Of a DNA stretch of 64,000 bases, positions 33,106 through 41,397 are shown one piece after another; the stretch's first letter is position 1; every line of letters begins with the position of its first letter. The stretch is from an uncultured Bacteroidales bacterium (lineage in GTDB: Bacteria > Bacteroidota > Bacteroidia > Bacteroidales > FEN-979), in assembly GCA_903916595.1 (NCBI GenBank), contig CAIWXI010000031.1, positions 107,154 to 171,153 on the forward strand, in the 5' to 3' direction. A program made the position numbers and the translations under genes. Under the pieces are notes generated by a model, which was not told where the DNA came from, ran no database searches, and saw only the letters and a list, made by a program, of their open reading frames with translations.

Positions 33106-34239
33106 ATGCTTGACCTGCTTGTAAATATCGATACTGTCCCACTGGTGTTGCTGATCGTTTTTTGCTGTTTCTTTCTGATCCAGATTACCTATTACCTGCT
33201 TATTTTTCTGAGGCTTGCAAGGTATAAAGGAGCTCGTCCGGGCCAGTCGAAAACAGGCGTTTCAGTAGTTATTTGTGCACGTAATGAATATTATAATCTG
33301 AAGGCTAACCTGCCTCTTGTGCTTGATCAGGACTATCCCGAGTTTGAAGTGCTGGTAGTAAACCATGCCTCTGATGACGAGACTTTGAACCTGCTTTCGG
33401 ATTTGCAGCGCGAATATCCGCACTTGAAAAGCATCGAGATACAAAAAGACCTGAATTTTTTCTCAGGCAAAAAATTTCCGCTTTCCATCGGAATCAAATC
33501 GGCCAAATATGACCAGATACTATTAACCGATGCCGACTGCAGACCCTCTTCCAGGAACTGGATCACCGAAATGCAATCAGCATACAGTAAGGGAATTAAA
33601 GTAACTCTCGGGTATAGCCCGTATACTCAAAACAAAGGCCTGCTTAACAAGCTGATCCGTTTCGACACAGCCCATATAGCCGTTCAGTATCTTTCATACG
33701 CTCTGGCGGGTTTACCGTATATGGGGGTTGGCAGGAACCTCTCGTACCATCGCTCGGTGTTTTACGACAACGGGGGTTTTATTCCGCATTACAGGATACG
33801 CTCGGGCGACGACGATCTGTTTATCAACCGGGTTGCAAAAAAAGCCAACACTGCAGTGGTCGTCACGGAAAACAGCTATACCCTGTCGGAACCCAAGAAG
33901 ACCTTCGGCCAATGGATAACCCAGAAAAGACGACACCTTTCTACTTCCATGCATTACCGCTTCAGACATAAGTTTCTGCTTGGGTTGTACTCTTTCAGTC
34001 TTTTGTTTTACTACCTGTTTTTTTTGCTGATGCTTTCGCTCAATTACTCAATATTCCCTGTCCTTGGCTTGTTTGTTATCAGATTGGCTATACAGTATCT
34101 GATCCTCTCCCGCTGCTTTAAACAGTTGCATGAAAAAGATCTTATCCTTTTTATTCCATTACTTGAAATTGTACTTTTACTGCTGAATACTGGCATCGGC
34201 ATCACAAACCTTTTCCGCGAACCGAATAAATGGAAATAG
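33106..34239 (+). CDS. Family 2 glycosyltransferase, membrane-anchored
   Basis: GVSVVICARNEYYNLKANLPLVLDQDYPEFEVLVVNHASDDET; DADCRPSSRNWI; Q-R-R-like QKRRHLSTS. Confidence 0.92.
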   Translation: MLDLLVNIDTVPLVLLIVFCCFFLIQITYYLLIFLRLARYKGARPGQSKTGVSVVICARNEYYNLKANLPLVLDQDYPEFEVLVVNHASDDETLNLLSDLQREYPHLKSIEIQKDLNFFSGKKFPLSIGIKSAKYDQILLTDADCRPSSRNWITEMQSAYSKGIKVTLGYSPYTQNKGLLNKLIRFDTAHIAVQYLSYALAGLPYMGVGRNLSYHRSVFYDNGGFIPHYRIRSGDDDLFINRVAKKANTAVVVTENSYTLSEPKKTFGQWITQKRRHLSTSMHYRFRHKFLLGLYSFSLLFYYLFFLLMLSLNYSIFPVLGLFVIRLAIQYLILSRCFKQLHEKDLILFIPLLEIVLLLLNTGIGITNLFREPNKWK

Positions 34240-34838
34240 TAAACCATCTTACCGAGAAAGGGCAGAGGGATTACCAACTTGTTCAGCTTGCGCGGAATAA
34301 GGGGGATCAGAAAGCATATGCGGAATTGCTTAACAATTACCGCGATTCATTGTATTTCATGATGCTAAAGATGACGAGAAATGCAACAGATGCCGAGGAT
34401 CTTACCATCGAAGCTTTCGGAAAGGCTTTCAGGAATCTGGCCAATTACACTACCGAATATGCTTTCAGCACCTGGCTTTTTAAGATAGGCGCTAATAACT
34501 GTATAGATTTTCTCAGGAAAAACAAGAGGTTGGAATTTACAGGTTACGAGTGGGGAGACGAGGAGGATTCGATGGATATAAAATCGGTGATACCTGCCGA
34601 CACTCTTGATCCGGAGGAACATGTGATTGCCAAACAAAAGGTGAAACTCATGCGCGAGGTGGTTGAAAAACTCAAGCCTCACTACAGGCATATGATAGAA
34701 TTGAGGTATTTCCAGGAATGGTCGTATGAGGAGATCGCATCGAACCTTGACCTTCCTCTCGGCACTGTAAAAGCCCAGCTTTTCAGAGCCCGGGAGCTTC
34801 TTTATCAGATACTGAAAGGGGCGGAGGACAAGATATAG
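34230..34838 (+). CDS. ECF-type RNA polymerase sigma factor
   Basis: ATDAEDLTIEAFGKAFRNL; LRYFQEWSYEEIASNLDLPLGTVKAQLFRARELL. Confidence 0.95.
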   Translation: MEIVNHLTEKGQRDYQLVQLARNKGDQKAYAELLNNYRDSLYFMMLKMTRNATDAEDLTIEAFGKAFRNLANYTTEYAFSTWLFKIGANNCIDFLRKNKRLEFTGYEWGDEEDSMDIKSVIPADTLDPEEHVIAKQKVKLMREVVEKLKPHYRHMIELRYFQEWSYEEIASNLDLPLGTVKAQLFRARELLYQILKGAEDKI

Positions 34839-38570: not shown

Positions 38571-38796
38571 TCCTTACGCATACAAACGTACTTGAAATAA
38601 GTAAAATGGACAAATTTCATCATACAATCAATAAAAATAATTTTTTTTCTGATTTTTTTTCTTTCACGCAACTAATTGCATCTATAGCCTGTCTTCTACA
38701 TAACAACAGGCAATCTGGCCCACGCCTCTGATTTTTATTTTTCAACAATCGTATCACTTTTTGGTTTATCCCGGATAAAGAAGGAGATTTTCTTTT

Positions 38797-39378
38797 ATGA
38801 TTTTGCTGTACACAAACGAACGGCTGATTAAGGGACTGCTGGAGGGAAAGGATTCCTGCATTAAATTTCTTTACAGGGAATATTTTCCAATGGTAAGGTC
38901 TATTGTCAGCACCCAGAACGGTAGCCAGGAAGACGCCGAAGATGTTTTCCATGATGGCTTGATTATAATTTACAATCGCCTCAAAAACAAGAGGTTTAAA
39001 CTTAACAGTACCCTTAAGACCTACCTTTTCTCTGTCTGCAAGAATATCTGGATGAGAAGATGTGAGCGGAAGTACAGGTTGCTTTATGGAGCCGACTCTC
39101 TGGTTAATGAGACTGAAGGACCTTATTCTCAGGAGGCATCGGAGGAAGAGGAAACTGAGAAATTCAGGCTTTACAAGAAGCATTTTCTTGAATTGCCTGA
39201 ATTCTGCAGAATCATTCTTACTCATTATCTCTGCAAGACACCTTTACCCGAAATAGCCAGGATATTAGACTATAAGGACACGGAATATGTGAAGGCAAGA
39301 AAATATTACTGCAAAAACCTGCTCCGTAAAAAAATACTGAGCGATCCGAAATGTAAACAATTTATGAACTATGAATGA
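38797..39378 (+). CDS. ECF-like sigma-70 family factor
   Basis: QEDAEDVFHDGLIIIYNRL region 2; EIARILDYKDTEYVKARKYYCKNLL region 4. Confidence 0.85.
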   Translation: MILLYTNERLIKGLLEGKDSCIKFLYREYFPMVRSIVSTQNGSQEDAEDVFHDGLIIIYNRLKNKRFKLNSTLKTYLFSVCKNIWMRRCERKYRLLYGADSLVNETEGPYSQEASEEEETEKFRLYKKHFLELPEFCRIILTHYLCKTPLPEIARILDYKDTEYVKARKYYCKNLLRKKILSDPKCKQFMNYE

Positions 39379-40153
39379 TTTTTTTAAACTCAGCCATTGG
39401 ATAGGAAAATTCACCGACAATGAGCTGACGCCTGAAGAGGAGGACAGTCTTCTGATAGGGGCATCGCGTAATCCAATACTCAGGAATGAACTACGGCTTG
39501 ACCGGGAGATCAGTGGGCTTCTGGATGACTACCAGCGGATCAGACTATCTGAAACCATAAAAAGAACAATGAAAGCGGAAGAGGGGAAAGTTGTCATCCC
39601 GTTCTGTTATCAAATTGCTGCTTCCATGATTATTCTCATGACACTTGCCTGCCTTACAGGTTTCGTGATTCATTATTCAAATCAGAATGCCGCTCATCCT
39701 TTACTTGCAATTAGCACGATTCTGGAACCAAAGGTTAAGGATTTGCTGGTTCTTTTTAATGGGAAGGAGCGGCAGGACAGGCTTTTTTCTCCTTTAAAAC
39801 GAAAAGTAACTGCCCAGCCCGTCAATGAGGATCGACTGTATACTCCGAAGCCGGAATATGAATTTCTTGTGGGCTCTGTAATGAGAGATGTTTCAGTAAT
39901 CGTTCTTTCTCCAATGCCCAGGGTTAGCTGTAAATCTGACAGTCTGTTGCAGTTCAGCTGGCGATGGCTTAACGGCTCAGTACCGGTTAGTATTGAGGTA
40001 TTTGATATTCACGACCGGCTAGCATTCGATTACATACAGAAGACCGGTGAAGCTTATGTTTTGAACATGAACCATTGGGCAAGAGGGCTTTATTATTATA
40101 AAATTTCAAGCGGGGAAGAATTAATAACAATGGGCAGCATTTCAATTTATTGA
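39371..40153 (+). CDS. Single-pass membrane protein, putative anti-sigma factor-like
   Basis: Overlaps the sigma gene by 8 nt; cytosolic N-terminus, one TM (IAASMIILMTLACLTGFVI), ~170 aa probably periplasmic C-terminus. Confidence 0.6.
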   Translation: MNDFFKLSHWIGKFTDNELTPEEEDSLLIGASRNPILRNELRLDREISGLLDDYQRIRLSETIKRTMKAEEGKVVIPFCYQIAASMIILMTLACLTGFVIHYSNQNAAHPLLAISTILEPKVKDLLVLFNGKERQDRLFSPLKRKVTAQPVNEDRLYTPKPEYEFLVGSVMRDVSVIVLSPMPRVSCKSDSLLQFSWRWLNGSVPVSIEVFDIHDRLAFDYIQKTGEAYVLNMNHWARGLYYYKISSGEELITMGSISIY

Positions 40154-41397
40154 ACGAGATGGATCCGAAGGTTTTATTGCTCATGATCTTATTACTTTTC
40201 GTGATTCCCTGTTTTCTGACTTCAGCCAGGGCCCAGGCTCAGGAGGTCGAGTCGTTTATTCCTGTTTCAGGACATTCTCAGCAAGAGCCTGATCCGGGCA
40301 TGCTGCTGATGATCCAGAGCCTGCTTTCAAAACAGGAAGTGATACTGGAATATTTTCCTTCCGATACGATGCTTATTATTATTGTAATAACTAAGGAGTC
40401 AACCGAAAAATTCGTTTTAAGAACAGGTCTTGAGCTCAGGTCTGGGGTGAGCAGGGTTCTTAAAAAGATCAGGCTGGCCGATTTAGGGGATTATAAAAAA
40501 CAGTCAGAGGGTTTAAGTGAAGTTCTGCTTGAAACAGTCGCAATGAAACTTAAAGGAAAGAACAAGGCAATCATCATAGCACATAATTTTCTCAATGGGT
40601 TTCCATTTGAAGCGCTTTTGTACCATGTTATAAATGCAGGTACACATGCATGTAATTCTACTTATTTTATCGAAGCGAAAGAGGTAGTTTATAATAACTC
40701 TCTTAACCAATGGCTGAGTAAGCGCTTACACGAAAAGATTTCAGAAGTGAATAAAAAATCTGAAAATACCATTGCATTTGCAGGATTTTCGCCTGGTTTT
40801 GAATTTCATGAATGTGTTCAGGAGCTTAGGGATGCGCCGAATGAGATCAGCACAATTGGACGAATGTTCAATGATAGAGGAAAAACGCCATTGCTTTTAC
40901 TGAATGAAAATTCAAATGAAAATAATTTCAAGTCGATTGCCTGTTTCAGCCATATAATTCATATTGCCACGCATTCGATTTCGGGTGATGATGATCAGAA
41001 GATGAACGGACTTCTGTTCAATGAGTTCGGAGCACGACAGAATTATTGCGGCACGGATGACGGGCTGCTGGCTATCAGTGAAATCTGCGAACTGAGAATC
41101 AGTGCCGATTTAATCGTGCTTAATTCCTGTTCCTCTGCAAATATCAGAAGCCGGATAGGTAGAAACTGGATTTCCTGTGCCGATTGTTTCATGAAGGCAG
41201 GAGCAAATAACGTAATCTGCACTTTATGGAATGTCACCGACTGTTTTGCAGAACGGTTCATGGTGGAGTTCTACCGTTACTTTCTCTCAGGCATGTCGTT
41301 TAGCAAAGCGCTGCAACAGGTCAAAGTGAAAATGATCAGGGAAAGGTCCACTTCTCTGCCCGTGAACTGGGCAGCATATGTACTAATTGGTGAATAA
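40150..41397 (+). CDS. CHAT-domain (caspase-like) protease with N-terminal signal peptide
   Basis: HIIHIATHSISGDD (His), ADLIVLNSCSSA (Cys), GANNVICTLWNV, RYFLSGMSFSKALQQVKVKMI; leader MDPKVLLLMILLLFVIPCFLTSARAQA. Overlaps upstream ORF by 4 nt if TTG 40150 is used; ATG at 40159 is the alternative. Confidence 0.88.
   Translation: MNEMDPKVLLLMILLLFVIPCFLTSARAQAQEVESFIPVSGHSQQEPDPGMLLMIQSLLSKQEVILEYFPSDTMLIIIVITKESTEKFVLRTGLELRSGVSRVLKKIRLADLGDYKKQSEGLSEVLLETVAMKLKGKNKAIIIAHNFLNGFPFEALLYHVINAGTHACNSTYFIEAKEVVYNNSLNQWLSKRLHEKISEVNKKSENTIAFAGFSPGFEFHECVQELRDAPNEISTIGRMFNDRGKTPLLLLNENSNENNFKSIACFSHIIHIATHSISGDDDQKMNGLLFNEFGARQNYCGTDDGLLAISEICELRISADLIVLNSCSSANIRSRIGRNWISCADCFMKAGANNVICTLWNVTDCFAERFMVEFYRYFLSGMSFSKALQQVKVKMIRERSTSLPVNWAAYVLIGE

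Follow-up and report, generated by a model that had tools for sequence, protein, structure and literature searches.

The window, that is, the whole stretch of 64,000 nucleotides that was analyzed, comes from a Bacteroidales genome, and the ORF list placed three adjacent genes at positions 38797–41397 of it, encoding a sigma factor, a membrane protein (hereafter MID) and a CHAT protease. Based on family searches, alignments of relatives, profile comparison (hhalign) and AlphaFold models, the following features were assigned.

38620–38796, + strand: upstream region, candidate promoter and 5' UTR (sequence blocks kept in six relatives)
38797–39378, + strand: ECF-type sigma factor, 193 amino acid residues (family searches)
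39371–40153, + strand: MID, one-pass membrane anti-sigma-like protein, 260 residues (relatives, AlphaFold, hhalign)
39371–39595, + strand: MID residues 1–75, predicted cytoplasmic helical sigma-binding domain lacking zinc ligands (hhalign, 98.5%)
39608–39670, + strand: MID transmembrane segment, residues about 80–100 (AlphaFold helix 79–105)
39839–39889, + strand: MID juxtamembrane motif YTPKPEYEFLVGSVMRD, residues 157–173 (alignments of both MID classes)
39884–39886, + strand: codon of MID R172 (conserved in the alignments)
39890–40150, + strand: predicted periplasmic Ig-like beta-sandwich of MID, residues 174–260 (AlphaFold, fold matches, hhalign)
40159–41397, + strand: CHAT protease without TPR repeats, predicted to be exported, 412 residues (PF12770, catalytic dyad, relatives)
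40159–40233, + strand: predicted signal peptide, CHAT residues 1–25, ending in SARA (read from the sequence; conserved in relatives)
40972–40974, + strand: codon of the catalytic His, the second His of HIATHS, residue 272 of the 412-residue form (138 of 138 frames)
41128–41130, + strand: codon of the catalytic Cys in LNSCSS, residue 324 (138 of 138 frames)

The three ORFs had been proposed in a first-pass annotation of this DNA, and all were found where it had placed them. The 8-nt overlap that it described between the sigma and MID genes (39371–39378) was real and was identical in all five close relatives. The 4-nt overlap between MID and CHAT did not hold up: it needs a TTG start at 40150, whereas a conserved ATG at 40159 was favored by the relatives. 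Because the close relatives start at this same ATG, it is most likely the CHAT start, and it lies 5 nt past the MID stop codon, which leaves a gap. An antisense ORF (38620–39225) that overlaps the sigma gene was taken to be a by-product.

The first gene product matched the NCBIfam sigma70-ECF model (6e-16, residues 23–179) and Pfam Sigma70_r2 (1.4e-8), both above the cut-off, with sigma2 at residues 25–92. A region-4-like helix-turn-helix was recognized at residues about 130–180, and no separate region-4 hit was obtained in the Pfam search. With sigma2- and sigma4-type regions only and about 190 residues, the protein is an ECF sigma factor, as first proposed, and its counterparts in the five relatives were 72–80% identical to it. 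Upstream of the gene, conserved blocks (CTGTC..AACAGG..CTGGCC..TATCACTTTT..CCCGGAT) were observed in six relatives, although the next gene upstream varies; this region (38620–38796) is possibly an autoregulated promoter or a 5' UTR element. A second ECF-type sigma gene is located about 4 kb upstream of the trio (34230–34838). It overlaps a glycosyltransferase gene at the latter's end, a urocanate-hydratase-like gene follows, and no anti-sigma-like ORF adjoins it.

No family was found above the cut-off for MID in the family searches, in which its C-terminus showed a weak, sub-cut-off likeness to T9SS sorting domains. The AlphaFold model contains N-terminal helices, a transmembrane helix (residues 79–105) and a C-terminal beta-sandwich, with usable confidence in the C-terminal part only; this helix and the one hydrophobic segment in the sequence bore out the earlier description of a single-pass membrane protein. 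Lys and Arg residues on the N-terminal side of the segment suggest an N-in orientation. The beta-sandwich resembles the DUF3244 folds 3d33, 4g5a and 3sd2 (E 4e-4 to 9e-4), and PDB searches gave no significant match of the MID N-terminus to a solved anti-sigma structure.

Three architectures were found among the CHAT-linked MIDs: a helical N-terminus, a transmembrane segment and an Ig-like domain, as in the window; a zinc-finger N-terminus, a transmembrane segment and the same Ig-like domain (L095, L098 and L101, with zf-HC2 scores of 9e-4, 3.6e-4 and 2e-5, above the cut-off in L101 only); and a helical N-terminus, a transmembrane segment and TPR repeats. In hhalign, the N-terminus of MID matched that of the TPR-type CHAT-linked membrane proteins at 98.5%, and its C-terminal domain matched, at 99.7%, a domain that distant relatives carry joined to anti-sigma zinc fingers of the zf-HC2 type. 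A direct match between the N-termini of MID and of the zf-HC2 proteins was not obtained (probability 0.8%), so that the shared C-terminal domain is the sole connection between them. The N-termini of the TPR class gave sub-threshold anti-sigma matches in NCBIfam. MID also has the layout of a class I membrane anti-sigma factor, since it adjoins an ECF sigma gene (with the 8-nt overlap in six genomes) and has a predicted cytoplasmic N-terminal domain and one transmembrane segment. Because of the homology to the TPR and zf-HC2 classes, together with the adjoining sigma gene, MID is probably an anti-sigma factor. The earlier pairing of sigma with anti-sigma is therefore favored, both halves of MID being homologous, by profile comparison, to parts of CHAT-linked membrane proteins encoded beside sigma genes.

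The third gene product matched PF12770 with 5.4e-44 and 151 bits against a cut-off of 24, and its gene was the sole CHAT gene found in the genome. The catalytic His (HIATHS) and Cys (LNSCSSA), previously read as intact, are both present, and the aligned positions were kept in every CHAT frame covering the site (138 of 138), which argues that catalysis is maintained by selection. Export is predicted from the hydrophobic N-terminus and the A-x-A site read in the window protein; the same prediction in the first-pass annotation was strengthened by hydrophobic N-termini in 30 of the 31 sigma/MID-linked CHATs. In 23 of these 30, a hydrophobic segment was also located at the C-terminus, mostly in partners of TPR-type MIDs, which suggests a C-terminal membrane anchor that has no counterpart in the window CHAT. 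Proteins hydrophobic at both ends include those of L102, L111, L121, L126 and L155, among others. The AlphaFold model of CHAT was unusable (mean pLDDT 37; the six-row alignment was too shallow), and the PDB sequence search gave no significant match. In the CHAT tree, the partners of Ig-type MIDs formed one group (support 90/98) apart from the partners of TPR-type MIDs, the row labeled TPR_L034 being a close relative of the window that belongs to the Ig type. Thus, the type of MID tracks the phylogeny of CHAT.

Conservation of the locus was analyzed at several depths. The MID search retrieved five MAG loci labeled Bacteroidales or Bacteroidetes, all with sigma and MID genes overlapping by 8 nt and followed by CHAT (in one case cut by the contig end), and with a RidA gene downstream of the trio wherever the contig extends. 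Identities to the window proteins in these loci were 49–56% for MID and 58–64% for complete copies of CHAT. All eight genomes of the same genus had MID, as did 26 of the 29 that represent other genera of the family; in the family loci read, the sigma gene lies upstream of it and CHAT downstream. From the other families of the order MID was nearly absent at the sensitivity used. Judged by gene content, the genus has the trio as a fixed feature, and the family very nearly so. Two genomes are consistent with joint loss of MID and CHAT: G320 has neither gene, and in G319 MID is missing and CHAT is broken. Since the trio is kept in relatives although MID is only about 49–56% identical, its conservation goes beyond chance, and by this comparative evidence sigma–MID–CHAT is a real, conserved module.

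At this locus, sister genera encode a long TPR-type CHAT (frames of 838–1074 residues), often next to prolyl-oligopeptidase and RidA genes as in the window; the short CHAT (403–467 residues) was found in the genus of the window and in three other genera. Such a difference of architecture at an unchanged position was seen when L049, L058, L059 and L063–L066 were compared with window positions 40159–41397. Given that CHAT usually comes with TPR repeats in this phylum, the simpler reading is that the window CHAT arose by loss of the TPR part.

CHAT proteins were present in 148 of 297 sampled Bacteroidota genomes, and 100 CHAT loci of about 11 kb each were searched for sigma and MID with iterated profiles. 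A sigma gene was found near CHAT in 35 of the 100 loci and both sigma and MID in 32, against an expectation of about 3.5 sigma-bearing loci calculated from 4.76 sigma genes per Mb (26 genomes) and a 7.4-kb flank; this is about tenfold enrichment (binomial P = 9e-26). At the sensitivity used, the other 65 loci had no sigma gene nearby. Linkage in related genomes, on which the first-pass annotation had made its reading depend, was thus observed in the genus, in the family and across the phylum. Among 31 resolved arrangements, 19 were convergent, seven divergent and five co-directional, so that the linkage outlasts inversions, which points to shared function and not to operon inertia. As the trio recurs across the phylum and is often rearranged, the protease very probably works together with MID. 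That the genes are accidental, functionally unrelated neighbors is very improbable: apart from the 65 loci without sigma nothing was found in its favor, and the enrichment and the persistence through inversions stand against it.

The association was also seen from the side of the membrane protein. Seven full-length Ig-type MIDs were found in six of the 297 genomes, each abutting a CHAT gene, and no unlinked full-length Ig-type MID was found among these genomes. For the TPR type, 33 of the best 40 matches lay within about 12 kb of a CHAT gene. Part of this co-location is circular, since profiles A4 and A5 were themselves derived from MIDs linked to CHAT: of the 33 linked matches of the TPR type, nine are profile rows, leaving 24 linked among 31 independent ones, and the second copy in G120 is the sole independent Ig-type match. 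Two CHAT loci on cyanobacterial plasmids had no annotated sigma neighbor; in one of them, on a Nostoc plasmid (L259, 4537–9264), the TPR-CHAT gene is directly followed by a peptidase C14 caspase gene.

Between the transmembrane segment and the periplasmic domain, both MID classes carry a motif consisting of an aromatic residue, any residue and Pro, followed further on by Arg and then by S, G, D or A; YFAPYSNVEYPITRS, HFKPYPMVLNQRS and YYEVYKPLSAFRS are examples from TPR-type MIDs. In the window this Arg is R172. It is constant in the MID family alignment, and when 11 diverse Ig-type MIDs were compared, nine columns were invariant, that of R172 among them. Because the domains that follow the motif are unrelated, a natural way to account for it is a partner common to both classes, for which CHAT is the obvious choice. 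The motif may serve for cleavage, for docking or in some other way. It was missing or altered in some CHAT-linked MIDs (L131/G194, L202/G293) and present in two TPR-type MIDs (L239 in G286, L255 in G222) from genomes in which no CHAT was detected; recent CHAT loss, an assembly gap or a substitute protease are possible causes in G286 and G222. The proposal that the motif marks CHAT-linked anti-sigma factors only is weakened by these CHAT-less genomes. Moreover, orthologues of Craspase cut at non-conserved sites (PMC11106740), and for this reason the conserved Arg is no more than a lead.

The best single explanation, to which about an even chance is given, is an envelope signaling module in which CHAT acts as the site-1 protease on MID. 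MID would hold the sigma factor at the inner membrane, and a periplasmic signal would be sensed via its Ig-like domain or by CHAT itself. CHAT would then cleave MID within the juxtamembrane stretch, with R172 or its immediate surroundings as the most likely site, and an RseP homologue and cytoplasmic proteases would subsequently free the sigma factor. The whole would amount to regulated intramembrane proteolysis whose site-1 protease has a caspase fold. Since the CHAT of the window lineage has no TPR repeats, recognition would probably reside either in MID or in the N-terminal part of CHAT, which is some 100 residues long. A candidate for the site-2 step is encoded in the genome, namely one M50 protein of 439 residues with an HEMGH motif (the RseP homologue). 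We infer the topology, the binding of sigma, the cleavage of MID and the cascade from sequence. The site-1 hypothesis had already been put forward in the first-pass annotation; it is plausible and partly supported, being in agreement with the compartment, the catalysis, the linkage, the motif and the RseP homologue. Counted against it are the mismatch between the Arg motif and the presence of CHAT, the variable cut sites of the Craspase orthologues, the 65 of 100 CHAT loci without sigma, the failure of the MID N-terminus to match a solved anti-sigma structure significantly, the partial circularity of the co-location counts, and the low overall confidence of the structure models of both MID and CHAT.

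Alternatively, CHAT may be an output of the pathway: the sigma/anti-sigma pair would respond to envelope stress by way of another site-1 protease, and CHAT would be a main member of the regulon, an envelope protease with other substrates. ECF sigma factors commonly activate their own operon and neighboring genes, CHAT is mostly a separate, convergent transcription unit in the linked pairs, and the sequence upstream of the sigma gene is conserved, all of which would suit such an arrangement. A simple regulon relation, however, does not require the type of MID to track the CHAT phylogeny, nor full-length Ig-type MIDs to be seen beside CHAT only, and this account is considered rather unlikely, if a serious one.

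Slightly less probable again is contact between MID and CHAT without cleavage, in which the periplasmic domain of MID would bind CHAT, restrain it or read its state, and relay a change in CHAT, such as the binding of a substrate or ligand, to the sigma factor. A motif ahead of two unrelated types of domain could be a docking peptide just as well as a cut site, and its retention in some genomes without CHAT and absence in some with CHAT fit here too; a purely structural role would, however, make the dyad kept in all 138 frames unnecessary.

An envelope defense or self-killing device, in which triggered CHAT would attack envelope proteins of its own cell and the sigma system would merely tune its level, is improbable. 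It draws on the occurrence of CHAT or caspase proteins with ECF sigma factors in proposed conflict systems (PMC8195603) and of CHAT with an ECF sigma factor in type III-E CRISPR (PMC10028731). Yet the locus is stable at one address in the family, with slow change of gene content unlike that of typical defense genes, and no defense-island signature was found, PADLOC matches being marginal only.

The reading of CHAT as a site-1 protease has its nearest known mechanism in the Csx29–Csx30–CASP-sigma system of type III-E CRISPR, in which the CHAT protease Csx29 cuts Csx30, the inhibitor of an ECF sigma factor, CASP-sigma (PMC10028731). In both cases a CHAT protease is encoded with an ECF sigma factor and a restraining protein, and proteolysis is proposed to lift the restraint. 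Craspase, in contrast, is cytoplasmic and RNA-activated, and its TPR-CHAT acts with Cas7-11 and no membrane-bound partner (PMC10028731), whereas the window CHAT lacks TPR repeats and has a predicted signal peptide, and MID is a one-pass membrane protein. Membership of the type III-E CASP systems was rejected, as no Cas7-11/gRAMP effector adjoins the locus; the neighbors of the trio are peptidases, RidA and an outer-membrane-protein-like gene. A caspase-fold protease is likewise encoded near an ECF sigma factor in the EACC/caspase systems, which include ECF sigma and DUF1822 genes and are predicted to act in signaling; their partners, unlike those here, are EACC, DUF1822 and TRADD-N, autoproteolytic activation is proposed, and the accessible part of that source describes no one-pass anti-sigma factor of the MID kind (PMC8195603).

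The proteolysis of RseA (by DegS and RseP) and of RsiW is similar in logic, as a one-pass anti-sigma factor with a periplasmic part is involved and an RseP homologue is present in the genome here. The type of protease differs: the known site-1 proteases are DegS, PrsW-like proteins and signal peptidases, and a caspase-fold site-1 protease would be new. A full-text search found no earlier description of the Bacteroidota trio; the main ECF classification lies outside its coverage, and a prior mention there is possible.

To our knowledge, most CHAT proteins of Bacteroidota have no assigned function. The linkage ties a sizeable share of them to a specific pair of partners and names a candidate substrate and residue, and it suggests that caspase-fold proteases control transcription via the envelope outside CRISPR. 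A bolder generalization is regarded as possible but doubtful: in CRISPR-independent signaling across the phylum, exported CHAT would be the site-1 protease of ECF anti-sigma factors, cutting at the conserved Arg of the shared juxtamembrane motif whether an Ig-like or a TPR domain follows. If this is true, the Csx29–Csx30–CASP-sigma system could be related, as a cytoplasmic form, to a housekeeping circuit older than itself, and the anti-sigma-like target of Craspase would gain an evolutionary background.
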